Source: a virus. From it: 64,000 bases of DNA. Below are positions 16,029 to 42,928 of the stretch, piece after piece (position 1 is the stretch's first letter; every line of letters starts with the position of its first letter). The position numbers and the translations under genes were made by a program. The stretch covers positions 1-64,000 of the IMG/VR virus record IMGVR_UViG_3300034121_000527. The stretch is one strand, 5' to 3'. The notes under the pieces are model-generated. The model searched no databases, was not told the DNA's origin, and saw nothing but the letters and a program-made list of their open reading frames with translations.

Positions 16029-16391
16029 ATGACCAAAGAAAAACTGATAGTTAATCTTTGCCTTGATGACATTATCAAGCCTGACCACGCTCTGAGGATA
16101 CTTGCCTCAGAGATTGGACTCAATGATGATGAAACCGAAGCATTCATCATCAAAATTGCCAGTCATTTCAAGGATAGAACTGGTAAGTCCAGATGGACAG
16201 ACAGCGAAGACGATCTCGTTGTCTCCATGTATGGGGAAGGTTATCCCCCCAAAGATATAGCTAGTAGATTGGGGCGAACTGTTGCCTCGGTAAATCAGCG
16301 CATTTTTATTTTGCGCAAGTGTGGGTACAACCTACCTAGTAAACGGCCTGATGCAATGGGTAACTCCTACGCTAAGAGGTGGGTGTCATGA
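16029..16391 (+). CDS. HTH DNA-binding protein, SANT/Myb-like (120 aa)
   Basis: Residues ~52-97 (RTGKSRWTDSEDDLVVSMYGEGYPPKDIASRLGRTVASVNQRIFILRKCG) follow the pattern of SANT/Myb or GcrA-like small helix-turn-helix domains: R-W-T-x-x-E-D-x-L, a turn, then D-I-A-x-x-L-G-R-T-x-x-S-V-x-x-R. The N-terminal ~50 residues are acidic and helical. Probably binds DNA and regulates early genes, or acts in host takeover. Good AAAGGA upstream (spacing a little long); follows tRNA-Met. Confidence 0.7.
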   Translation: MTKEKLIVNLCLDDIIKPDHALRILASEIGLNDDETEAFIIKIASHFKDRTGKSRWTDSEDDLVVSMYGEGYPPKDIASRLGRTVASVNQRIFILRKCGYNLPSKRPDAMGNSYAKRWVS

Positions 16392-19043: not shown

Positions 19044-20330
19044 ATGGCAAGTGTCAAAGAATTAAGGAATGGGATGAGAGTGGTGGGCAAGTATCCGCCA
19101 TTCAAAGATGCTGAGGGTGAGATCACTCGCAGTGTATTGGTGCCAGGTGGTCCTGGTAGCAAGATTCAAGTAACTTTCGATGATCCGTTGTTAGGTACAG
19201 TGGAGATTCTGCCCAAGGGTGTTGAATTGATTGGACGTGTTAGCGTTGCAAACGCCGCCTCGTCCACTACAGCCTCCGCCACTACAGTGGTTGGTAATGT
19301 GATTATCAGCGATATGCGTATCGAATCGCTAGACGATCCTGCTTTGGACGACTTCCGTCCGAATATCAATCCTGCTAACTACGTATCACGTACGCTTGCA
19401 GGCGGTAAGACAGACTTGGAAGTTATGGAAGCATACTTCAATCGTCGTGACGAGAACGACGGGTACCCCGTATCCGTCGCTTTGGTAGGCGATACGCAAT
19501 CAGGTAAGACCTACCTCATTCAGGTACAGGCTTTCCGTATTGCCAAACTGTTGGGACTACAAAAGCCATTGCCGTTGTTCCTGCTCGCAGGTTCAAGCGC
19601 AATCACCGATCACGACTTGTTCGGACAGTATCGTCCGATCATTGTGAATGGGCAAGAACGTCTTGTGTGGATGGAGGGCATCGTTGCTCTAGCCGCTCGT
19701 CTCGGTGGTATCTTGTATCTTGACGAGGTTAACGCTATGTCAGGCTCAGTAACGGCAGCAATTCACCCACTGCTTGACAATCGTCACCAGTTCGTGAACA
19801 TCCGTAAGCCTGTCTGGAAAGGCACGGTTGAGGTTGACCCAATCACAGGCGTTGAGACGCATCATGGTGCATATCGCCCCGAAACAGTGGTGGCGAATAA
19901 GAACCTGTGGATCATGGCTTCATGGAACCCTGGTTATGCAGGCATGGCCAAAACCAATGAAGCGTTTGCTAACCGCTTCAAATTGTTGGAATGGAACTAC
20001 GACGAAGAGGTTGAGAAGAAGCTCATCAAGTCACCAGCAGTTCGGTTGCTTGGCCAGGCTTTGCGCAATGCTCGTGCTCAGCGTTCAATCACAACTCCTG
20101 TTGGTACACGGGCACTGCAGTTGCTTGAGGGTGACTTGGTTCACCTTGGAGTTGACTACAGCCTTTGGGCTTTCATGGGCCAGTTTGTGTCATCACAAGA
20201 AAAGATTGTGGTGAACGAGATCATCAAGGATCGTGGAATTGCAATCATGATGAAAGACGAATTCGAGCCTGACGTACCTGCGCCAGCAGTTGACCTCACA
20301 TCGCTTATTGGCGATAACGAGCCGTACTGA
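19044..20330 (+). CDS. MoxR/CobS-like AAA+ ATPase (428 aa)
   Basis: N-terminal ~65 residues form a KOW/SH3-like beta segment (GMRVVGKYPPFKDAEGEITRSVLVPGGPGSKIQVTFDDP). The AAA+ core has Walker A GDTQSGKT (149-156), Walker B ILYLDE (223-228), the N-rich sensor LWIMASWNPGYAGM (~300) and the DLFGQYRP motif of the MoxR branch. MoxR enzymes act as chaperone-like remodelers together with a vWA partner. The next gene encodes a vWA protein, so the two probably form one machine. AAGGAGG precedes ATG. G+C looks higher than in the following gene. Confidence 0.85.
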   Translation: MASVKELRNGMRVVGKYPPFKDAEGEITRSVLVPGGPGSKIQVTFDDPLLGTVEILPKGVELIGRVSVANAASSTTASATTVVGNVIISDMRIESLDDPALDDFRPNINPANYVSRTLAGGKTDLEVMEAYFNRRDENDGYPVSVALVGDTQSGKTYLIQVQAFRIAKLLGLQKPLPLFLLAGSSAITDHDLFGQYRPIIVNGQERLVWMEGIVALAARLGGILYLDEVNAMSGSVTAAIHPLLDNRHQFVNIRKPVWKGTVEVDPITGVETHHGAYRPETVVANKNLWIMASWNPGYAGMAKTNEAFANRFKLLEWNYDEEVEKKLIKSPAVRLLGQALRNARAQRSITTPVGTRALQLLEGDLVHLGVDYSLWAFMGQFVSSQEKIVVNEIIKDRGIAIMMKDEFEPDVPAPAVDLTSLIGDNEPY

Positions 20331-20347
20331 TCCTGAGGAGGAATCAC

Positions 20348-22567
20348 ATGGTAAAGAAACAAAAAATGAACGAGGATGCTCTTGACCGACGGTCAAAGGC
20401 ACGCTCCATGAATCGCCGTGAGGCACTAAAGATTCGGGAGGACTACAATAAGGAAGTCTTAAACTTGATTTACTCAAATGACAATCAAGTTGATAAAGGT
20501 TTCCTTAACCACAAAAGTAAGGGTGACCCACGTGCTATCAGAGCTACTGCTTATGTATTAGCTGAACGAGCACGTAAGGTTCTTACTTCTATGGGTATCA
20601 ACCCACCCCTATCGTTGGATGTTGCGTATTACCGCAATGAAGTTAAGACAGTCAGTGCCATTACTGACTACAACAAAATTTCAATCCAGTTTGATATGGG
20701 TATGGTTGATCCATCAGATACAACAAAGATTGCAGAGTTGTTATCTGCTCTCAAAGCAGTGGTTTACCACGAAGGTGGGCACATCATGCTCACTTTGCCT
20801 TGGAAAGTGTTGTTTGATTGCTCATTAATGGATAACGGAATGAATCCAATTTCGTTTAACCCATATCAAACTAAGTGGGGTGACAACTTTGCAGAAACTT
20901 ACCCCGCTTATGTTGGTATGCGCAGTGACCTGAGATCAATTACAGACACCGTTCCTACTCCCACCGACCATGGAATTGTTTTTAGCAGTGATTCCAAATG
21001 GCAACAACATCACAATCATTATTATGGTGTAGCTGAGGTTTTGCACCCCAGTTGGAACCTATTGGAAGATGGGCGTATGGAGAGTGAGATGACTATCAAT
21101 AACCCTCCCATGATTAACTACTTCACTTCCTTAGTACTTAACTACATCGTTGATGAGGAAGAGCCAGGCTATGCTTGGCCGTTTGTTATCACTAGGTTGC
21201 ATTTGGATGAGGAGCTCATAGATAACATTAGACAATTGGCATATAAGTTTGCAGAAGATAAGAACTTAGATGTTACTCTTGTTGATCAAATCGAAGAGCA
21301 AATCCATGTGTATCGTCAAGCTAAGACACCAACAGATGTTGTTGTTGCTACTTGGCAAATGCACAACCTCATCACTCAGTGGATGGCCGGGGGTAAAGGT
21401 AATGATGGTAAGCAACCACAACCTGAAGATGGACGTGGACGACAAGGTAAAGGTTCACCTAATCCTGGCGGTACTAATGAGGGTAATAACCCTGGTAAAA
21501 CCGTAGTCCACGAACAACCAACCTTTGGTGATGAAGGTAAAGGTTGGGAGACAAAGCCCGGAGATCCTAAGCAAAAACCTGAAGAGGGTGAAGGTGAAGG
21601 TAAGGGGGAAGGTGAGGGTGAAGGTAACCCAACAAACGAAGGTAAAACTGGTAAGGGTAATGAATCTGATAAGGATTCAAAAGAAATTAGTCCTACCGGT
21701 GGTACTAAAGGCACTGGTGGTAAGGTTAAACAAAACATTAACTACCAAGAGATTCGTGAGAAACTCAAAGAGAAAACCAAAGAAGCAATGAAGCGTATTG
21801 TTTCTAACGACGAAGCGGAACAGCTCATCTCTGAAATCAATACAGAGTTGATGCGAGACATGCCACATAATGGTGCTGTATCAAATATGGACGGTGCTCT
21901 TATGGCCGATGCAATGTCTGTAGCTAGTCAAATGTTATCGGCGCTTGAACCGTTAGCATTGACAGCTGATCCTGCTTGGCGTTTCCGTCAGGAACATGGT
22001 GTGCTTGACCCCACGTCATACAAAATGCACGAGCCTGGTGACTCAGACTATTGGGTTGACTACGAAGGTGAAGGTGCCCATGGCCATAGTCTTGCTGTGT
22101 CTGTTATGTTAGACACTTCAGGTTCTATGCAAGGTTGGATGGATCAACTATCAGTTGCGGCGTATGGTATACGTAGTGCTTGTGATAGCTTAGAAATCCC
22201 ATGCACAGTGTCTACCTTTGACACAGAGCCATACATGATCTGGGATCATGATGAGGTTGCACAACCAGTGCTTATCCATGATGGTGGTGGTACAAATCCG
22301 CTTGATGGTTTGCGCCAAATTAAAAATCAGGTTGCTGGTAAAAAGCGCCACCTTGTTGTTATACTCACCGATGGCGAGTGGTCACAAGTAAATTCAATCA
22401 AGCCATTTGTACAACCTGGCCAGTACTGGTTACTAGTTGGCCTTGGTAACGCTCATTACGCCAAGGAGCTTGTATCCAAGAAAGGTGGTGACGTGGCAAT
22501 TGGTATTGATGACGTAATGAATCTCCCCAAGGAGATTGAGAAAGCTCTTATCGGATTCCTAGCCTAG
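20348..22567 (+). CDS. vWA protein with HExxH motif, CobT-like (739 aa)
   Basis: Three parts. Residues ~1-370 contain VVYHEGGHIML (HEGGH, 141-145), which fits the HExxH zinc metallopeptidase signature. Residues ~385-465 are a disordered Gly/Glu/Lys linker (repeats of GEGEG). From ~480 a helical region leads into a C-terminal vWA domain with MIDAS residues DTSGS (~588), GGGTNP (~650) and LTDGEW (~674). The layout matches CobT-like partners of MoxR/CobS ATPases but with an added peptidase-like N-terminal domain. Whether the HEGGH site is active is unknown. Strong GAGGAGG site; 17 bases downstream of the ATPase. Confidence 0.8.
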   Translation: MVKKQKMNEDALDRRSKARSMNRREALKIREDYNKEVLNLIYSNDNQVDKGFLNHKSKGDPRAIRATAYVLAERARKVLTSMGINPPLSLDVAYYRNEVKTVSAITDYNKISIQFDMGMVDPSDTTKIAELLSALKAVVYHEGGHIMLTLPWKVLFDCSLMDNGMNPISFNPYQTKWGDNFAETYPAYVGMRSDLRSITDTVPTPTDHGIVFSSDSKWQQHHNHYYGVAEVLHPSWNLLEDGRMESEMTINNPPMINYFTSLVLNYIVDEEEPGYAWPFVITRLHLDEELIDNIRQLAYKFAEDKNLDVTLVDQIEEQIHVYRQAKTPTDVVVATWQMHNLITQWMAGGKGNDGKQPQPEDGRGRQGKGSPNPGGTNEGNNPGKTVVHEQPTFGDEGKGWETKPGDPKQKPEEGEGEGKGEGEGEGNPTNEGKTGKGNESDKDSKEISPTGGTKGTGGKVKQNINYQEIREKLKEKTKEAMKRIVSNDEAEQLISEINTELMRDMPHNGAVSNMDGALMADAMSVASQMLSALEPLALTADPAWRFRQEHGVLDPTSYKMHEPGDSDYWVDYEGEGAHGHSLAVSVMLDTSGSMQGWMDQLSVAAYGIRSACDSLEIPCTVSTFDTEPYMIWDHDEVAQPVLIHDGGGTNPLDGLRQIKNQVAGKKRHLVVILTDGEWSQVNSIKPFVQPGQYWLLVGLGNAHYAKELVSKKGGDVAIGIDDVMNLPKEIEKALIGFLA

Positions 22568-22575
22568 GAGGTTAT

Positions 22576-22851
22576 ATGGAATGGTCAGATGTTTCTGACG
22601 TTGAAATAGAGGAAGAACTACCTGGTGTTATTCAGGTAGTTAAAATAATCAGATACGACATTGAACATGTTTTATCTGCGATGCAAAAGAACGGAGAGTT
22701 CCCTAACCCAACCATAGATGACATTCTCAGTGTTGTTGCTGGTTGGGCTTCGGAAGACTTTGGGTGTCAGTGGGGTCATCCCACTGACGCATCAAAGTTG
22801 GTGTACTTGGATGACTTAGGTAATTCATTGTATGTTCCGGAGGAAGAATGA
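22576..22851 (+). CDS. Hypothetical acidic protein (91 aa)
   Basis: Acidic protein (VEIEEELPGVIQVVKIIRYDIEHV), with DASKLVYLDDLGNSLYVPEEE at the end. Not recognised. Placed between the vWA and SNF2 genes, AGGAGG upstream and overlapping the next start, so it is likely part of the same functional unit. Confidence 0.65.
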   Translation: MEWSDVSDVEIEEELPGVIQVVKIIRYDIEHVLSAMQKNGEFPNPTIDDILSVVAGWASEDFGCQWGHPTDASKLVYLDDLGNSLYVPEEE

Positions 22852-24320
22852 GTGGACAACTCAGTTCGGCAAACGTGCCGGCGTCCAATTCGCTGTATCT
22901 TCCTAGCCTCGATATCAATCTGTTTGATTATCAAGTAGAAGCGTTTGAATGGGCTGTTGATAAACAACAATCTTATCTAGCGTTAGATATGGGGCTGGGA
23001 AAAACAGCGGTAGCAATTGCTGTTGCTTCGGCATTAGTTGAACAGCTACAGCAAAAAGTACTTATCATAGTTCCCCCAAGTCTTATATTAAATTGGGTAA
23101 CAGAATTTGGTAAGTTCAATAAAAACATAAGGGTTGCCGTGCTGCGTGGTAAATCCCCATCTGGGCTACCAGATGCCGATGTATACATAATCGGTAACGC
23201 AGTTTTAGCGCAATGGGTTTTAGTACTTATGGGAGAAATAGACGCCCTCATAGTTGATGAAGCCCATTTCTTTAAGAATAACTCCAAGCGTACAAAGGCT
23301 TTGATAAGCCTTAGTCAATACATGCCCACTAATGCAATACGTGTTCTTATGTCAGGAACACCTGCGCCCAATGGGAGAAACATGGAGTTAGTTACCCAGT
23401 TAGATACTCTTGGCCCTAATGCATGGCAAGGAGTTGGTGGTATTGGGTATTTTTGGCAACACTATGCCCCTTGGTCTGGCGTAATCATTAATGGGAAGAA
23501 AGTAGGAAGAATATCCACTAATGATCTAGACCTTAAAAACAAAATGCATGATTCTTTTATGTTTAGGCGTAAAAGAGATGAGGTATTAGATTTGCCTACA
23601 AAAACAAGAGCCACCGTTGTTCTTGAGGGAACAGGTACCGCTGTTGACGATTACATAGCCTGTGAGAATGATTTAATTGCATGGCTTGAGTCTTTAGACA
23701 AGGATACAACTGGGGCCGAAAGAGCATATGCATTGGTGCAACTTGGTTTTTTGCGTAAGCATGTGGGTAAAGCTAAGGTTGAATCAATCATCAAGTTTGC
23801 ATCTGAAATATTAGATAATGAACCTGGTGGTTTGTTCATTGTTGCCGAACACATAGACACTATGAATGCCTTAACTGCTGGTCTTAGCAAATATAAGGTT
23901 TGTGAAGTCCGTGGTGGTATGTCAGAGTCTGCTAAACACAAAGCAGTCAACGACTTTAATAGTGGCGCTTCAAGAGTTATGGTAGGTCAGATAATATCTG
24001 CTGGTACGGGCTTGACTCTTACTGGTAACGGAATTAACGTGAACCACCGAACAATCATTGCGCAGTTACCGTGGAATCCTGCCTCGCTTAAACAAGCAGA
24101 GGATAGAGTCCACAGAATTTCACAGTCAATGGATGTATGCGTTACCATTCCGCTGTGCCATATAGAGGGTCGCCAAACAATTGATGAAAGATTGTGGGGT
24201 GTCCTTGAAGATAAGGCGTTCTCAACAGGAATTCTTATTGATGGGGAAGCCGAAGTGTTACTAGAAACAATTCAAAACGGGGTTCTTGACTCCTACAAAC
24301 GAAAGAAGGTAAATCCATGA
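22848..24320 (+). CDS. SNF2-family DNA helicase/translocase, copy 1 (490 aa)
   Basis: Motif I DMGLGKT (47-53), Ia LIIVPPSLILNW, II DEAH (137-140), III VLMSGTPAPNG, then the second RecA-like lobe with VMVGQIISAGTGLTLTG (V) and KQAEDRVHRISQ (VI). This is a superfamily 2 SNF2-type ATPase that tracks on double-stranded DNA. Starts by overlapping the stop of the 91 aa gene. The phage has a second SNF2 at 51412-52959 in the replication module; this copy is in the early MoxR-vWA operon and is more divergent. Confidence 0.88.
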   Translation: MSGQLSSANVPASNSLYLPSLDINLFDYQVEAFEWAVDKQQSYLALDMGLGKTAVAIAVASALVEQLQQKVLIIVPPSLILNWVTEFGKFNKNIRVAVLRGKSPSGLPDADVYIIGNAVLAQWVLVLMGEIDALIVDEAHFFKNNSKRTKALISLSQYMPTNAIRVLMSGTPAPNGRNMELVTQLDTLGPNAWQGVGGIGYFWQHYAPWSGVIINGKKVGRISTNDLDLKNKMHDSFMFRRKRDEVLDLPTKTRATVVLEGTGTAVDDYIACENDLIAWLESLDKDTTGAERAYALVQLGFLRKHVGKAKVESIIKFASEILDNEPGGLFIVAEHIDTMNALTAGLSKYKVCEVRGGMSESAKHKAVNDFNSGASRVMVGQIISAGTGLTLTGNGINVNHRTIIAQLPWNPASLKQAEDRVHRISQSMDVCVTIPLCHIEGRQTIDERLWGVLEDKAFSTGILIDGEAEVLLETIQNGVLDSYKRKKVNP

Positions 24321-24673
24321 AAGTTAACTCATTCAATATAGGTAAGGAATGGTTAGACAAGAAGAAAGCACTTGCTGAATTGCAAGCTGAATTTGATGAG
24401 CTAGATTCGAAGCTCAAGGAGTTCATGTTTTCTACTGGCCTCAAATCAATTGAAATTGACAAGAGTGTTATTGAGTTACAAGTTAACGCTCGCAGATCAT
24501 TCGATGCTACTGCATTGAAGGATATGGTTAGCGCCTCAGTGTTTAACAAGATAACAAAGCCAACTGTTGACACAGCATTGATTGACGCCGCAGTTAAGTT
24601 GGGCACAATCAAGCCTGATGTGGTTGAACAAGTAACCAAGAAAACCGAATACAAACAACTACGAGTGAAGTGA
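24317..24673 (+). CDS. Coiled-coil protein, SNF2-coupled (118 aa)
   Basis: The N-terminal ~40 residues form a coiled coil (EWLDKKKALAELQAEFDELDSKLKEFMFS), followed by KSIEIDKSVIELQVNARRSFDATALKDMV. Overlaps the helicase gene (ATGA). Its layout (coiled coil, then a beta pair, then helix ending in Lys-rich QLRVK) resembles the 142 aa protein coupled to the other SNF2 gene at 50976-51404, so both SNF2 helicases may have such a companion. Confidence 0.65.
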   Translation: MKVNSFNIGKEWLDKKKALAELQAEFDELDSKLKEFMFSTGLKSIEIDKSVIELQVNARRSFDATALKDMVSASVFNKITKPTVDTALIDAAVKLGTIKPDVVEQVTKKTEYKQLRVK

Positions 24674-27954: not shown

Positions 27955-28029
27955 ATGTGGATAGTTATGGCAATTATTTTGTGCGTAATTTTGTACTATG
28001 TAACAAGCCAAATAGATGGAGATAAATAA
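27955..28029 (+). CDS. 24-residue membrane peptide
   Basis: ATG 27955 follows AAAGGAG with a seven-base spacer and the stop overlaps the next start (TAATG). The peptide, starting MWIVMAIILCVILYYV, is nearly all membrane segment with a charged tail. The good site and tight coupling argue it is translated. Confidence 0.6.
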   Translation: MWIVMAIILCVILYYVTSQIDGDK

Positions 28030-28493
28030 TGCAAACGTTTGTACCACACGGAAGTGACTTCACTAGCAATGCCATGGTGCTTGATCGGCAACGCCTTGGT
28101 AAACAGCGAGTTGAAGGCTTACAAATTATTAATACATTGCTCGGTTACAGTGATGGCTGGGCAAATCACCCAGCGGTAAAAATGTGGAAAGGGTATGAGC
28201 AAGCCCTTGTTAAGTACACATTGAGTATGTGTAATGCTTGGACACTAAAAGGATACAAAGATACATGTGCCACAAAAATATTAGAAAAAAGCATTGACTC
28301 AGGGTTATTTGTTCCCGAAACTGTTTGGGCAGATATTGAGTTGCCCACTTGGTTAGATGACCCTGAAGTAATGGAATCACATAAGTCAAATTTACTTCGT
28401 AAGTTACCTAGCCATTACTCAAAGTATTGGCCTGAAGTGTCACCTGACCTGCCTTACAAATGGCCAACCCCAAGTTCAAAGGATGTTAAATAA
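28029..28493 (+). CDS. Pyrimidine dimer glycosylase-like / MSMEG_6728 family (154 aa)
   Basis: MQTFVPHGSDFTSNAMVLDRQRLGKQRVEGLQIINTLLG...GWANHPAVKMWKGYEQALVKYTLSMCNAW corresponds to the family related to T4 endonuclease V (pyrimidine dimer glycosylase): early Arg-rich helix (LDRQRLGKQRVE), NHP-x-x-x-M-W, and YEQAL. Probably DNA repair or nucleic-acid binding. The catalytic N-terminal Thr of T4 PDG is not obvious, so enzymatic activity is unproven. Confidence 0.7.
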   Translation: MQTFVPHGSDFTSNAMVLDRQRLGKQRVEGLQIINTLLGYSDGWANHPAVKMWKGYEQALVKYTLSMCNAWTLKGYKDTCATKILEKSIDSGLFVPETVWADIELPTWLDDPEVMESHKSNLLRKLPSHYSKYWPEVSPDLPYKWPTPSSKDVK

Positions 28494-32236: not shown

Positions 32237-33664
32237 TTAGCTTAAATCAATTACATCTTGGATAAATTGGTCTGTTTGATTTGGGCCCAATCCTCCACCA
32301 GGAAGCTGCCGAGCAGTTTCTCCGGCTTTGCTACCAAACAATCTAGAAAGTACCCCTGCGTTACCTCTTGCTTCTACTTCAATGCGCATAAGATCACGGG
32401 TGTCGGAGATGTTTTTAAACTTGTCAATTAGAGAGAATAACCTATCCATTTCTGATGACAAGGCGGGGTCAAGGCCCTGGCCCTCAAGCTCTTCGGCAAA
32501 TCTTGCAAACAAAACTCGACTGGCTTGCATCTCAATCATTGCCTGCAGAACAGCATTTAACTGATCCTTAGATCGTATTTCTACAGGTAACTTAAACCCA
32601 CAATCTGAATGTTCCTTGAATGCAGGACAACGTGATGCAAGATAGCAACTATCACATTGTCGCAAAGGTCCACTTTGATACCTAATGACAGGGGTTTCTG
32701 TAGGGGCGATTTCTATGTGTTCTCCCTGCTCAGAGCCACTTTGTGTACCCATTGAGATGATATGTTCTATGCCCATAACCGGTAGCAATAGACGCTCACT
32801 TTCGTGCCGCTTCTCTAGGTGGGAGATAGCAATATTACCCCCCTTGGAAACCGGTTTATCTACATTAGGTGACATAGGGGGTATATCAACTATATCCCCC
32901 TCTTCTACCTCTCCAAACTCAGACTCATCATCAGTAACTTGAGGGTCATAGCCCAAAAATGTGGACTGTTCCCAAGCCTTCCAAGACTTGATTGCAAGTG
33001 ACCCAACCGCTGTCACATTGTCTTCTAAGATTGCTTCGTAATCAATACCTAATCTTAAAATGTCCGCTCTGTGCTTCTTGCGAGAAGATTCTTTCTGCTG
33101 CGCAGGGTATCTATGGAGACCATGACCATCCCATACTTGGGTCTCACCATAGCGTATGGATGAGGTCCAAGATCCAACTACAACAGCTTCCCAAGGGAGT
33201 GCTTGGATAACGTCAGGTTTACTTGTTAAACCATAAAGCTTTGCTCCCCAACGCTGTGAGAGTGACCGGATACGCGGAAGTGTTTTAGAGTTTATGGCCT
33301 TGTCTGAGATAGCAGCTCTACCATAACGTTGGCATAACCATGCCAGTCTTTCTAAATCGTCGTCATCTGACCATACCGGGACGTACTTATCTCCCAACCA
33401 TTCCCCATCCATATCAGGACGCCCAATAACAACAGATAAGGAGTCGGCGTGGTCTCTTACAAAGGTTTCATACTTATTGAGGTCCTCATCCCCCTCTGAT
33501 GTATACACCAGAATTTCAGCAGAAGCAAACACCTCTTCAGGGTTAAACTCCTTACGTTTTGGGATGGGCAAGTGAGTAATGTTCACAGCTACTCTAGTTA
33601 TTTCATTAGATATGAGCAGGTTTCTGTGGGTGCCTTTTTCGGCACCTCCAAAGAATATGTGCAT
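32237..33664 (-). CDS. Conserved phage protein with CxxCx5Cx7C motif (475 aa)
   Basis: N-terminal ~230 residues form an alpha/beta domain (MHIFFGGAEKGTHRNLL ... VVIGRPDMDGEWLGDKYVPVW ... VVVGSWTSSIRYGETQVWDGHGLHRY). A ~110-residue acidic linker follows, then QCDSCYLASRCPAFKEHSDCGF (~344-365, C-x2-C-x5-C-x7-C), a possible zinc or Fe-S site, and a helical C-terminus. I do not recognise the family. It is tightly coupled to the HAD-like and zinc-finger genes upstream. Confidence 0.6.
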   Translation of the reverse strand: MHIFFGGAEKGTHRNLLISNEITRVAVNITHLPIPKRKEFNPEEVFASAEILVYTSEGDEDLNKYETFVRDHADSLSVVIGRPDMDGEWLGDKYVPVWSDDDDLERLAWLCQRYGRAAISDKAINSKTLPRIRSLSQRWGAKLYGLTSKPDVIQALPWEAVVVGSWTSSIRYGETQVWDGHGLHRYPAQQKESSRKKHRADILRLGIDYEAILEDNVTAVGSLAIKSWKAWEQSTFLGYDPQVTDDESEFGEVEEGDIVDIPPMSPNVDKPVSKGGNIAISHLEKRHESERLLLPVMGIEHIISMGTQSGSEQGEHIEIAPTETPVIRYQSGPLRQCDSCYLASRCPAFKEHSDCGFKLPVEIRSKDQLNAVLQAMIEMQASRVLFARFAEELEGQGLDPALSSEMDRLFSLIDKFKNISDTRDLMRIEVEARGNAGVLSRLFGSKAGETARQLPGGGLGPNQTDQFIQDVIDLS

Positions 33665-38329: not shown

Positions 38330-41300
38330 TTACATTCCCTGAGGAATTATTTCTCTACCCATACGTGATGGGCCCTTGGTAGGGTCATACACACGGTTGG
38401 TAGTATTACCCATTTGCTTCATGCTTAAATGGGTGTTGGGAGCACTAGCTGGGGTTCCTGACCATGCGTAATCACTAGTGTTATCTTCAACTGCTGTAGG
38501 TGCTTCAATTGCTGCTGGTGCTGTTGCACTAGCTTCTTGTGGACGCATTCTTTTTGGTGCAATCTTTGAGTATTGCCCTGCATTAAACAAACGGCCAGTT
38601 GGCTTAGCATCTTGTCCTCGTTCACCGAAATGTGCCCCAGTGCCAAGTCCTTGTGTTTGTCTTTGTGATAGTTCTCTACGTGTCATCTCAACACCAGTAG
38701 TAGGAACTGTATAGTTCCGTTCTTTAACAGCTGTTTCTTGTGGAGTTAAAGAAGGAAGTTGCTTATAGAGAACAGGTATTCTTTCTGTTTCTATATTGCT
38801 TGTTTTGTAACTTGGTGGAGCAATAGGTTTACCCATAAGAGGATTACGTGTTGTAGAGTTAATTCCAATAACTCCACCAGAGCTATCTTTAAGTTGGTCT
38901 TCTGAGGAAGTGTAATTACCTAAGTTTTCACCCTCAATAGGCGTTTTAATAAACTCAGCTTTTTTAAGTCCCTCTAAAGCCATACGTGTGTATGCATTAG
39001 CATTATTTGGAACATTAAATTGTGAGCTAAGGCGTGATGACTGCGGGGGAGTTGGTGCAGATCTTGTGGGTTTAGTTTGCGCCCAAGGAGTTGCCGTAGG
39101 AGAACTAGGTTCAGTCCTGGTAACAGTCTCCCTAGAAACAGTACCTGCTGGTTCTATCATACCTCTACCAGCAGACTTTGGTAGTATTCTGTCGCTGGTA
39201 CTGGTTGTTTCTATAGTTTCACTTACTTGTGAAGTACCCTCTGCTGCCTTGCGCGCTGCAGATTCTGCTCCAATTTTTCTTCCCATTTCAATTTTACCAA
39301 ATGATGGGAGTTCGGTTCCAGCAGTAATATTCCAACCTCTTTTACGTACTGCTATAGATAAGCGTTGACGTTCTTCGGTTGATTCTGGAATATTAATAGC
39401 ACCAGATCTATCTGATACACCTAGGTCATGCAGAGCTTCAATAGTCATACCATTTGGTAAGGTACCAAATGGTCTAGAAACTTCTCCAGTTTCGGAGGTG
39501 TCTGTGTAGCTTTCCAATGCACTGTGAACTTGCTCACTAAGAGTTAGTGGGGACTTAGCTCTTCTTGAGGTGGAAGTTGACGTATCCTTGACCGGTGCAA
39601 GTTCAATTTCTTGGTACTTGGGCTTGCCTGTCTTTTTATCTATTTCTTTTGCTTTTGATCCATATGCAATAGCGTCAATCCATTTAACGCCAGGGTCAAC
39701 GCTTGAGTCACCCCTAGTATAGGCTTCATCTGGGTTAGTGGTACTGACTAGTCTACGCCTACGTATTACCCGCTCTTTGCCCCCTGCTTTTGACAGTCCA
39801 GCAATAGACTGAGCAACATGTAAACGAACCGCATTTGCTTTTTCAGCTTCTGCAGTGTCTGTTGCAGACCCAGCAGATACTGGCCGGTCTATGACCGTGC
39901 CATCCGGTAGTTCTACTTCTTCAGTCTCCATGTTTCCACGAAGATCGCGTTTGACAGAACCTTGGGAAGCAATTATATCAAGGTGTTCTCTTGCTGCTTT
40001 GTCACCTGCAGCTTTTATGGCCTTAGTATGAACAGCTCTTAAAGCTTGATGAGCACGTTTTTGAGCGTCATCAGCATTAGCTGGGAGTTCAGTAAGCATA
40101 GCAATTTGTTCACCCTTAGCATTTACATGCGTACCTTCTTCAAGGGCTTTTCTAGTTTCCATTTGTGCTTTTTGCCGTTTTGATTCAATGTCTCTAGCAT
40201 CTATGATGCCTTGTTCAACATGTGGTTTTCTGATGTTTAGAACTTCTACTGCTCGTTTTACAGCATCTACGTCTGCATCAACAAGGCCTTGCCGTACGTC
40301 ACGAGCCATGCTTGTGTTAGGGGATTCTTGAGCAAGACCAAGTTGGTCTTTAAGTTGGGTAATGTCTGTACCTTCAGCATTTGCTTTTGAAATCTGTGCC
40401 TGAATACCTCTAGCGGCAAGTGCTTCATAACCTTGGAACTGTCTACCAACTGGGCCAATGGCTACAGGGTCGGTATAAGTTCTGTTTAAAGCGCGTCCAC
40501 CTAATTGACGTACTTCCCATGGTTTAGCCGCGGTTGCATCCCGCATAACTTTTATGGGGGTACCTCTAGAGTTGGTCTTATCTACCAATCGTCCATCTTT
40601 ATCTTTTACTTTTTCAGTTTGGACAATGTTTTCTGGAATCTTTCTCTTTGCCATTTCGGCAGCAACTTTTGTTGCAACAAGTGAAGATTCTGGCATGCTT
40701 GCAAGTTCTTCTTCAGTATGCCCGGCTGCTTTAACTTGGGATTCAACCAGTCGTCTAGTTATATCATATTGTGGATTACGAATACGTGAGGCAGTTTGAG
40801 GAGTAAGAATCCCTTCGCGACGTGCTTTCTGCGTTATCTTTGCTTGTTCTCTTATAGGTAGCTTCTCAAAACCTGGTGCGCGTGTTGGGTCACCTTGGTC
40901 AGAAATAAATTCACTTGTCTTAGTACTTGCAGCGAGCTTTTCACGTTCTTCTGTACTTAAATTAAGTAAAGAACCAGAACCAGTTCCTTCAGCCATCTGA
41001 GATAGCTTCATTCTTTCTCTATCTCCGAGATTAGCTTTACTGTTACGAGTAACTACATTTGGTCTGGTAGCTCTTTCTTTTGCTATTTCATGAAGGTCAT
41101 GCAAGTAATCAAGTCTGTTTGGAGTAACATTACGCTTTACGTAAGACCCACCTCCTGCAGCTCCAACCTTTACTACCTCTCCACCCTGCCCTGTTATTTC
41201 ATCTACTACTTCTTTAATGAGACCAAGGCCAGTAATATTTTTTGTGGATTTTCCTTCTTCATCTTTTCCGTCTTCTACTTTAACGCCTTGTCGTGTTGAC

Positions 41301-42928
41301 TTGGCTCTGACGTAGTTGTAATTGATTGGTTTATCACCCTCATACGCCACAGGACGGGTTTGCTCGTATTTGAATCCTGCTTTTTCTAGGATTCCATGGA
41401 TTTCTGAATTTGGGTCAGCTACTTCTGCAGCAGTAAGTGAAAGAGGGGTTCCTTCTTTAGCTGCTCTTTTCTTTTCTTGTTCAATAAAAGAGTTGTAGTC
41501 TACTGGTTCGTCAGAAGATACACCGTATTCATCCTTGTTTGTTGCTGCTTTTTCTCGTCTCCAGCTTTCAAAAGAGGTATTGCTAGCAATTGTGCCTTGA
41601 GCTTTTGCGGCATCAAACTCGGTTTTCATCAAACCTATTTTGTTACTCTCGGCTGTAAATCTTGCTTTTTGACCTCTTGTGGCTTCTCTAACTGCGGAAA
41701 ATGCAGGTGCAAGTGCGTCTCTATTGGAATCAATCCATGCTTGTGCATCTTGTAATGCAAGAGTTTTGCGCTCATCTTCAATACCACTAGCAATATCTTT
41801 AAATGCGGCTGGATCAATATCTGTATCTGGGGATTGTTCAGCTTTACGGAGTTCTGATACTTGACCTGCTTGCCCACCAATAAACCTTGCTGCGCTAGCT
41901 TCTCGTGCTGCGTTTCTACCCTCACGTGTTGATACATCAAACTGGGGGCCCATTGTTCCGCCAGTACCAGCAACCATTCCAGAACCTTTAGCATCAAGTT
42001 CTGCTTGTTCATCTGCTGATACATCACCAAATTGTGGTGTTACGGCATTAGCTGCGGCATATTCAATTTCAGCAGCTGTTTGTAAAGTACCTCTAGCTTT
42101 TTCAGAGCCACCACCAGAAGATGGGTTATAGGCATCTTTAGCAGCTTCAATGTCTTTATCTGAAGGCATTGTCTTGCCTGTGTCAATACCCTCGGTATCA
42201 CTGGGGATCTGTTCGCCTGCAGCGTTTTCACCAGATACTCCACCACTACCAGAAGGTCGGGCTGTCCCAGGTCCAAGAGTTTCTCTAACGTTCTCATCTA
42301 TACCTGGGATACCACCCATGTACCATATACTGGCAATAAAGTCAGCTTCTGTTGGCGTTTGCCCAGTGCTAGCACTTACATAACCACGGTAAGCTTTAGG
42401 ATTTTCAGGTTCGTAGCGAACTCCGGTGGTACGTCCACCAACTGTTTTAAAGAATGCTCGTGTGTCAATACCCATTCTTGCAGCTGCTTCATGACGGGCA
42501 GCTTCACGTGCGTCCTCTTCTTGGATGACGTCATCTTCACTGTAATAGCTTCTTTTTGCGCGTTCTGCAACAACTTGTCTGTTCTGTTCTGCAGTGGTGT
42601 CTTGCCTTGAAGTGCGAGCTACTGAGGTGTTTCTACGGCTGGTTTTAACCGACTTGGTTTCTCCACGCTTACGTTGTTTTGCCTTAGGAGTAGCTCTTGT
42701 TGCTTCAGCTGCACCTGTTTTACGTTGGTTTGCTTTGCGGTTTATTTCATATCTTTTAAGGTTCGGTGGAAGAGCCTTAAAAGCAGCTGCGTAAGTTTCA
42801 GTTAGAGGGGTTTCTTTACCTTCATCATCCCAAAATCTTTCCATACCGCCTGGCTGGTCTTTGGATAGGTTTGCTAATATCCCCAGTTCTTCTGCACTAA
42901 ACGGTTTTGGTATTTTCTTTTCAGCCAT
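38330..42928 (-). CDS. Very large hydrophilic protein (1532 aa)
   Basis: The longest gene of the window. Mainly charged and helical, rich in Ala, Glu, Lys, Arg, Thr; no membrane segment or catalytic motif seen. N-terminus MAEKKIPKPFSAEELGILANLSKDQPGGMERF; the segment around residues 60-130 is very basic (RKTGAAEATRATPKAKQRKRG...). The last ~250 residues are low complexity and include NAYTRMALEGLKKAEF, related to the DVYTxTAxKG units of the 561 aa protein. GGGAG lies upstream of ATG. It may be a large internal virion or ejection protein; unproven. Confidence 0.6.
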   Translation of the reverse strand: MAEKKIPKPFSAEELGILANLSKDQPGGMERFWDDEGKETPLTETYAAAFKALPPNLKRYEINRKANQRKTGAAEATRATPKAKQRKRGETKSVKTSRRNTSVARTSRQDTTAEQNRQVVAERAKRSYYSEDDVIQEEDAREAARHEAAARMGIDTRAFFKTVGGRTTGVRYEPENPKAYRGYVSASTGQTPTEADFIASIWYMGGIPGIDENVRETLGPGTARPSGSGGVSGENAAGEQIPSDTEGIDTGKTMPSDKDIEAAKDAYNPSSGGGSEKARGTLQTAAEIEYAAANAVTPQFGDVSADEQAELDAKGSGMVAGTGGTMGPQFDVSTREGRNAAREASAARFIGGQAGQVSELRKAEQSPDTDIDPAAFKDIASGIEDERKTLALQDAQAWIDSNRDALAPAFSAVREATRGQKARFTAESNKIGLMKTEFDAAKAQGTIASNTSFESWRREKAATNKDEYGVSSDEPVDYNSFIEQEKKRAAKEGTPLSLTAAEVADPNSEIHGILEKAGFKYEQTRPVAYEGDKPINYNYVRAKSTRQGVKVEDGKDEEGKSTKNITGLGLIKEVVDEITGQGGEVVKVGAAGGGSYVKRNVTPNRLDYLHDLHEIAKERATRPNVVTRNSKANLGDRERMKLSQMAEGTGSGSLLNLSTEEREKLAASTKTSEFISDQGDPTRAPGFEKLPIREQAKITQKARREGILTPQTASRIRNPQYDITRRLVESQVKAAGHTEEELASMPESSLVATKVAAEMAKRKIPENIVQTEKVKDKDGRLVDKTNSRGTPIKVMRDATAAKPWEVRQLGGRALNRTYTDPVAIGPVGRQFQGYEALAARGIQAQISKANAEGTDITQLKDQLGLAQESPNTSMARDVRQGLVDADVDAVKRAVEVLNIRKPHVEQGIIDARDIESKRQKAQMETRKALEEGTHVNAKGEQIAMLTELPANADDAQKRAHQALRAVHTKAIKAAGDKAAREHLDIIASQGSVKRDLRGNMETEEVELPDGTVIDRPVSAGSATDTAEAEKANAVRLHVAQSIAGLSKAGGKERVIRRRRLVSTTNPDEAYTRGDSSVDPGVKWIDAIAYGSKAKEIDKKTGKPKYQEIELAPVKDTSTSTSRRAKSPLTLSEQVHSALESYTDTSETGEVSRPFGTLPNGMTIEALHDLGVSDRSGAINIPESTEERQRLSIAVRKRGWNITAGTELPSFGKIEMGRKIGAESAARKAAEGTSQVSETIETTSTSDRILPKSAGRGMIEPAGTVSRETVTRTEPSSPTATPWAQTKPTRSAPTPPQSSRLSSQFNVPNNANAYTRMALEGLKKAEFIKTPIEGENLGNYTSSEDQLKDSSGGVIGINSTTRNPLMGKPIAPPSYKTSNIETERIPVLYKQLPSLTPQETAVKERNYTVPTTGVEMTRRELSQRQTQGLGTGAHFGERGQDAKPTGRLFNAGQYSKIAPKRMRPQEASATAPAAIEAPTAVEDNTSDYAWSGTPASAPNTHLSMKQMGNTTNRVYDPTKGPSRMGREIIPQGM

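Follow-up and report, generated by a model that had tools for sequence, protein, structure and literature searches.

The window analyzed here, the first 64,000 nucleotides of the IMG/VR virus record IMGVR_UViG_3300034121_000527 (93,972 bases in all), carries at positions 19044-24673 a locus of five open reading frames (ORFs), all on the + strand, that encode a MoxR-type AAA+ ATPase, a vWA protein with a metallopeptidase-like N-terminus, a small acidic protein, an SNF2 ATPase and a coiled-coil protein. We tentatively propose that this module is a phage AAA+ remodelling machine with a built-in metallopeptidase, which would be used early in infection on DNA-bound proteins. Sequence comparison establishes the homology of the AAA+, vWA and SNF2 parts, the conservation of the metal site and the linkage of the genes. 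The MoxR-vWA pair is common in viruses, yet it has been explained in print as a means of vitamin B12 synthesis or of virion assembly. A conserved protease-like metal site, missing from true CobT, offers a simple and decisive way to choose between these two explanations, and DNA-bound proteins are suggested as a class of targets by the linkage of SNF2 and coiled-coil genes. The features of the locus are as follows.

19044-20330, + strand: MoxR/NorQ/CobS-type AAA+ ATPase, 428 residues (AAA_5, E-value 1.4e-11; phrog_249, E-value 3.2e-20).
19488-19511, + strand: Walker A motif GDTQSGKT of the AAA+ protein (translation, alignment).
19704-19727, + strand: Walker B region GGILYLDE of the AAA+ protein (translation, alignment).
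20348-22567, + strand: putative zincin-vWA protein, 739 residues (sequence, alignment, AlphaFold2 model).
20768-20782, + strand: HEGGH zinc-binding signature, residues 141-145 of the vWA protein (predicted helix 125-148).
21065-21082, + strand: EDGRME, residues 240-245, candidate third metal ligand (predicted helix 214-251).
22112-22129, + strand: metal ion-dependent adhesion site (MIDAS) motif DTSGSM, residues 589-594 of the vWA protein (alignment).
22292 and 22370, + strand: remaining MIDAS residues, T649 and D675 respectively (alignment).
22576-22851, + strand: small acidic protein, 91 residues (20 D/E versus 4 K/R).
22848-24320, + strand: SNF2/SWI2 ATPase, 490 residues, core only (SNF2-rel_dom, E-value 1.6e-21; Helicase_C, E-value 1.8e-10).
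22986-23006, + strand: Walker A motif DMGLGKT of the SNF2 ATPase (translation).
23256-23267, + strand: DEAH motif of the SNF2 ATPase (translation).
24317-24673, + strand: coiled-coil protein, 118 residues (profile matches, homologues and a confident structural model).
24491-24508, + strand: RRSFDA motif of the coiled-coil protein (D63 kept in 7/7 aligned sequences).

The initial annotation of this DNA had described these five genes, and all the ORFs were found where it placed them, with its domain assignments and motifs confirmed. Its reading of MoxR and vWA as a remodelling pair is supported by the AAA+ and vWA family matches, and the metal site that it had noticed in the vWA protein is indeed present and kept in relatives. 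It had described the last four genes as closely spaced. In fact all five are: the gaps are 17, 8, -4 and -4 bases, the 17 bases being those between moxR and vwa. Relatives preserve the reading frames at the protein level, even where identity falls to 30-50%, so this set of ORFs does not arise by chance.

The vWA protein is built of an N-terminal metallopeptidase-like domain, a Gly/charged low-complexity linker (about residues 351-465), a CobT-like segment and a C-terminal vWA domain. Its AlphaFold2 model is of moderate confidence (predicted local distance difference test score, pLDDT, 67.9; predicted template modelling score 0.50). In this model, the vWA part superimposes on the MIDAS structure of Rea1 (Z 18.5, root-mean-square deviation 2.9, 196 residues) and on the vWA structure of NorD (Z 15.1, root-mean-square deviation 7.2, 209 residues). 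For the N-terminal part, the VIA-align and Foldseek matches listed include no structural match and no metallopeptidase, the model used being a moderate one. A zincin is expected to carry HExxH and a downstream acidic ligand, both on helices; the two motifs are present, and the same moderate model places HEGGH and EDGRME each within a predicted helix, as a zincin would have.

This putative metal site is conserved. YHExxH, LEDxRxE and the MIDAS residues are invariant in 12 of 12 aligned vWA proteins, of which the other members are 19-69% identical to the protein of the window. When distant phages are included, HExxH is found in 17/17 proteins and MIDAS is likewise kept, the exact EDxRxE being present in 14/17, with the variants EDTMIE and EDVFIE in a Rhizobium and an Escherichia phage, respectively. 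HExxH is also present in all ten phage proteins that were recruited via their AAA+ protein, a paper or their SNF2 and not via the motif, a less biased set drawn from four actinophages, two T4-like cyanophages and Vibrio, Rhizobium, Escherichia and Microcystis phages. The 133 distinct IMG/VR vWA proteins all contain HExxH, together with DxSxS in 130 and ED-x-x-x-E in 127, counts that are biased upwards because HE and LED patterns served to recruit the proteins in these scans. Between the window protein and that of locus L018, the zincin part is 37% identical and the vWA part 67%; a faster-evolving domain with fixed metal motifs would fit a catalytic site whose clients change. A Rhodobacteraceae metagenome-assembled genome (L040, 297-4487) encodes a 1397-residue protein in which about 700 extra, partly repetitive N-terminal residues are fused to the zincin-vWA part. 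We ruled out that this ORF is a MoxR-vWA fusion, as Walker A is absent from it.

The AAA+ protein has an AAA_5-type core with both Walker motifs, preceded at the N-terminus by some 60 additional residues, a domain that appears KOW/SH3-like by eye only. G149, K155 and T156 of Walker A and E228 of Walker B are invariant in 12/12 aligned AAA+ proteins. Compared with solved structures, the family profile matches midasin (1e-63), CbbQ (2.1e-25) and NorQ (1.2e-24). At locus L039 (5894-6565), a separate small basic protein encoded upstream of MoxR resembles, by eye, the extra N-terminal domain of the window protein. Altogether, 468 phage records match one viral AAA+ protein of the MoxR type. Pairing with vWA is not universal: in cr114_1 and in Microbacterium phage Cece a MoxR-like gene is present and a vWA partner was not found in the stretch inspected. 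The gene of Cece (L048, 9656-12994) adjoins an rIIA-like gene.

The same pair has been named CobST in many tailed viruses, with a proposed role in vitamin B12 synthesis (PMC8651126), and the proposal has been repeated for Mae-Yong1326-1 (PMC9503304). According to this hypothesis, which thus already has an annotation in print, the viral proteins would form a cobaltochelatase borrowing the CobN of the host. We compared them with cellular CobT (PF06213), which was found in 41/58 genomes; 30 loci (L049-L078) were compared, 4 of them recognized by BLAST and the others by motif. The viral protein and CobT do have in common the segment preceding the vWA domain (W-x-F..E-x-G-x-LD, then DxSGSM). At the place homologous to the viral metal site, however, HExxH is absent in 30/30 cellular CobT. 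Most of these display there, ahead of E-x-x-R, a variant of the kind HHDxxxH, with FH or YH in some and HHE in one. The sole HExxH of any CobT ORF, in L064, lies far upstream of this place. Furthermore, a PF06213 match was not found in the record of the window, while a Caulobacter control matches, and CobN was not found in 14/14 phage records tested, although a host CobN could serve. The large subunit of ribonucleotide reductase (RNR), present in 4/14 phage records, is absent from the record of the window and from 9/13 others. A vWA profile run against 58 alphaproteobacterial genomes gave a single match, in a metagenome-assembled genome already among the known loci. Given the segment in common, the viral vWA proteins and CobT are relatives, but the viral ones keep a site that is absent from cellular CobT. 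A cobalt chelatase is unlikely and an ATP-driven remodeller or protease is likelier; a viral CobST relying on host CobN for vitamin B12 seems to us very improbable.

One could rather assume that the machine inserts a metal cofactor in the manner of NorQD, HExxH carrying or sensing the metal and the client being loaded with no proteolysis. The closest structurally solved AAA+/vWA relatives (NorQ, NorD and CobT) insert metals, and a mechanism has been described for NorQD (PMC13036017). Yet CobT inserts its metal with no HExxH, so that the site would not be needed for metal insertion, and the distribution of the RNR large subunit given above means that an RNR client is not encoded by the phage here. 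We regard this alternative as decidedly doubtful.

The company kept by the pair bears on its possible targets. Because the phage collection showed no near-DNA match, relatives were sought with proteins and profiles. Close relatives, as well as those whose vWA proteins are 40-44% identical, keep the order MoxR-vWA-small-SNF2-coiled-coil wherever the contig covers the locus, and only there is the small acidic protein seen. At about 30% identity (L020 and L021), the order becomes SNF2-MoxR-vWA-coiled-coil; the contig of L022 ends within the vWA gene. MoxR and vWA are also adjacent in the Gordonia and Brevibacterium phages Chidiebere, GMA6, DalanDe and Cantare (about 20-30% identity), whose annotations call them "porphyrin biosynthesis", "AAA-ATPase", "CobT-like" or hypothetical. 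Linkage to SNF2 persists through at least three gene orders (MoxR-vWA-SNF2, SNF2-MoxR-vWA and SNF2..vWA-MoxR).

A census of IMG/VR combined 68 loci from one scan, the best 80 of 148 relatives from another and the earlier loci, 154 in total, from which 21 with a vWA protein identical to another were dropped. The 133 distinct proteins left form 33 clusters at 40% identity (the ORF of L118 was read from stop to stop, and its HExxH therefore lies further in). MoxR is located within 1 kb of the vWA gene in 130/133 loci. SNF2 is found within about 10 kb in 38 loci (14 clusters), the coiled-coil gene is in reach in 31 (12 clusters), and both are in 25 (7 clusters). A contig binned as Armatimonadota (L041, 109-9827), probably a phage, also carries SNF2 with divergent MoxR and zincin-vWA genes.

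The coiled-coil protein is modelled with good confidence (pLDDT 90.3) as a helix (residues 2-40), a beta hairpin and a small alpha/beta part; this model has no fold match in the PDB, the best Foldseek E-value being 0.096. The protein resembles the C-terminal tail of phage RecE-like exonucleases and, weakly, Mu Gam: the phrog_434 tail is matched by 10/10 members of the family and phrog_253 (Gam) by 4/10. A homologue lies at most about 3 kb after MoxR-vWA in 4/4 actinophages (E-values 1e-7 to 1e-8; 95.5% in hhalign for that of Cantare). A credible SNF2 match is absent from these four whole records, a single 10.7-bit match being seen in GMA6. As the homologue follows the pair in phages devoid of SNF2, the coiled-coil gene is, on the evidence of gene linkage, the third conserved gene, its primary tie being to MoxR-vWA, and SNF2 is an added part. 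The initial annotation had seen the coiled-coil protein as simply the partner of SNF2, which is contradicted by the four SNF2-free actinophage records and by L020 and L021, where SNF2 stands on the opposite side of MoxR-vWA. Its linkage of SNF2 to the module does persist in distant relatives despite the changed gene order. An unlinked SNF2 in relatives, which it had named as refuting its view, is found in some lineages, whereas SNF2 is linked in others.

The SNF2 ATPase possesses SNF2 N-terminal and Helicase_C domains with motifs I and II. It is distinct from a second SNF2 of the same phage (51412-52959, - strand), encoded beside DnaG and DnaB and only 24% identical to it; this second SNF2 also occurs as a second copy in the relatives G065 and G066. 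A tree built from 28 SNF2 proteins separates the 22 that come from MoxR-vWA phages from five other phage SNF2s (four from records with no AAA+ profile match, one from a record with an 18-bit match) and from the second SNF2 of the window. Support is 0.999 for a group of 16 that includes the window and the Microcystis phage, and 0.884 for the remaining six. Over 18 loci, SNF2 and MoxR show correlated pairwise distances (r 0.69, 0/2000 permutations). From its linkage, SNF2 is an optional fourth part of the module.

Another hypothesis is that SNF2 and the coiled-coil protein are unrelated neighbours, belonging to a replication and recombination block that happens to hold MoxR-vWA. The two largest vWA clusters have neither gene in reach, MoxR-type SNF2 is absent in the actinophages and in most annotated phages tested, and all the genes of a phage are co-inherited. 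Against this, the linkage outlasts the changes of gene order described above, the linked SNF2 differs from that of the replication block in the same genome, and relatives of SNF2 occur in 781/50,697 records of the phage collection, a count obtained by a method different from that of the linkage census. Chance neighbourhood therefore appears somewhat unlikely to us.

The main rival to our proposal concerns virion assembly or maturation, MoxR and the zincin-vWA protein acting as a chaperone-protease for the folding and trimming of virion structural proteins. It is a general fact that many tailed phages process structural proteins. Such a role has been proposed for the pair of jumbo phages (Iyer et al. 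2021, PMC7824862), and a precedent in tail development exists with p618/p892 of ATV (cited in PMC7911831). In the present phage, however, about 10.7 kb separate the operon, which is on the + strand, from the tail-fibre block, and the virion block, which is that of a contractile tail, has sheath, portal and terminase on the - strand. In annotated relatives the pair is located among replication and recombination genes (gp45/44/62/46/47; DnaB, DnaG, DnaE, SSB and RecA; or PolI and helicase), and in several lineages it travels with the recombination-tail-like protein and SNF2. We consider a function in virion assembly unlikely.

One would also wonder whether the machine serves counter-defence or host takeover by disassembling or cutting host defence complexes or chromatin proteins. 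The fast evolution of the zincin domain around fixed metal motifs would suit this idea, as would the location of the locus among small genes of unknown function, in the kind of block usual for early regions of phages. But apart from SNF2 helicase models no defence family is matched. T4-like cyanophages have cobS as a core gene (PMC3037559), and the pair is found across very diverse phages, an argument for a housekeeping role. This explanation strikes us as quite unlikely.

We thus favour a remodeller with a metalloprotease, because of the NorQD-like layout, the protease-like site and the replication and recombination neighbours. We infer complex formation, catalysis, DNA targeting, early timing and the order of events, the timing from gene neighbours only. 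MoxR would form a hexameric ring, as NorQ does, on which the vWA domain would dock, the MIDAS metal binding an acidic residue of the client. The proposal made for NorQD has the ring twisting the NorD linker and stretching it between two points of leverage (PMC13036017). By analogy, ATP turnover could twist or stretch the Gly/charged linker and pull the client between the vWA and N-terminal domains, so that the HExxH/ED-x-R-x-E domain could cut, or at least hold through its metal, an exposed segment. The coiled-coil protein may bring the machine to DNA or recombination intermediates, like the tail of a phage recombination exonuclease. In the lineage of the window, the SNF2 translocase could add force from the DNA side, and protein-DNA complexes would be stripped and cut, in analogy to SPRTN/Wss1 with p97/Cdc48.

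Several points weigh against this proposal. Activity, structure and interaction are all predicted only; the zincin fold of the N-terminal part is putative, its model being only moderately confident, and the role of a metal bound at HExxH could be structural. In Vibrio phage JSF27, HExxH is retained, but VVDHNIE stands in place of the expected ED-x-R-x-E. The two largest clusters, which lack SNF2 and the coiled-coil gene in reach, account for 58/133 proteins, and SNF2-driven DNA targeting therefore cannot be a rule of the family. Support for a single split uniting all the MoxR-linked SNF2s is only 0.38, and the correlation of SNF2 and MoxR distances, computed with no control gene, may reflect co-inheritance of whole genomes.

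A broader hypothesis would be that the viral CobST proteins, including the core gene of marine T4-like cyanophages, are virus-wide AAA+-driven metalloproteases rather than B12 enzymes. In the branch of the window, the machine, working with its own dedicated SNF2 translocase and with the recombination-tail-like protein, would strip and cut proteins off DNA for replication and recombination, as a phage counterpart of SPRTN/Wss1 with p97. So wide a generalization is, in our opinion, rather unlikely.

Elsewhere in the window, the replication block on the - strand encodes, besides the second SNF2, a PolI-type polymerase, a UvsX-like recombinase, a Cas4-like exonuclease, DnaG and DnaB. A transcription regulator resembling T5 D5 (phrog_323) is encoded at 16029-16391 (+ strand); by eye, look-alikes of it come after the coiled-coil gene in L020 and L021. 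A pyrimidine dimer DNA glycosylase (PF03013, E-value 6e-22) is found at 28029-28493 (+ strand). The protein encoded at 32237-33664 (- strand) matches phrog_887, a queuine tRNA-ribosyltransferase (E-value 6.8e-38), and could be a DpdA-like enzyme for 7-deazaguanine DNA modification. The 1532-residue ORF at 38330-42928 (- strand) has no Pfam or PHROG match. Promoter-like sites number 12, versus a mean of 18.2 in shuffled sequences, and give no boundary of the operon; terminator-like sites number 15, versus 7.5 in shuffles.

Finally, the module can be compared with known systems. The initial annotation had related it to bacterial conflict systems and knew of no phage system of exactly this composition. 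Like the ternary conflict systems with VMAP, iSTAND or FtsH (PMC7159879), it couples MoxR-vWA to a third protein, but here this component is a recombination-tail-like protein. General Pfam and PADLOC scans, which include no model dedicated to them, revealed no VMAP, iSTAND, FtsH or beta-propeller among the neighbours; among the PADLOC models, SNF2 alone has matches, to helicase models, and the AAA+, vWA and coiled-coil proteins have none. Calling the module a conflict system is thus unsupported.

As for novelty, the initial annotation is right only in part: the pair itself is already published (PMC7824862, PMC8651126), the former source including the metallopeptidase, whereas linked SNF2 and coiled-coil genes beside it were not found described in the titles and abstracts of the literature searched. 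In group 2.2 jumbo phages, a MoxR-clade AAA+ gene likewise stands next to that of a vWA protein bearing a metallopeptidase domain at its N-terminus, for which an ATP-driven remodeller or protease has been proposed (PMC7824862), and a table for a Staphylococcus jumbo phage places an AAA ATPase next to a "metallopeptidase" (PMC10638138). Differences lie in the size of the present phage (94 kb), the conserved RecE-tail/Gam-like gene and the linked SNF2, the jumbo proteins being compared through their published description only. Viral cobST (Liu et al. 2021, PMC8651126; PMC9503304) is the same pair, and the proteins of the Microcystis phage, two T4-like cyanophages and others share HExxH and MIDAS; however, the name implies cobalt chelation, while the metal-site motif is precisely what cellular CobT lacks, a comparison not found in the published passages. 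NorQ-NorD (PMC13036017; PDB 9qhd, 9qh8) resembles the module in its AAA+ family, its vWA domain and its succession of N-terminal domain, linker and vWA, but NorD, judged here by its description, serves nitric oxide reductase, and HEXXH does not occur in the main text of that paper.

A further parallel can be drawn with the MIDAS domain and AAA ring of Midasin/Rea1, which gave the best structural matches for vWA and the best profile matches for the AAA+ protein. Midasin/Rea1 is one giant polypeptide devoted to ribosome assembly, and it is not known to have a zincin domain. SPRTN/Wss1 with p97/Cdc48 associates an HExxH protease with an AAA+ motor of a class different from that of MoxR. What the phage module would share with it, by analogy only, is the idea of an HExxH protease and an AAA+ motor acting together on DNA-bound proteins.

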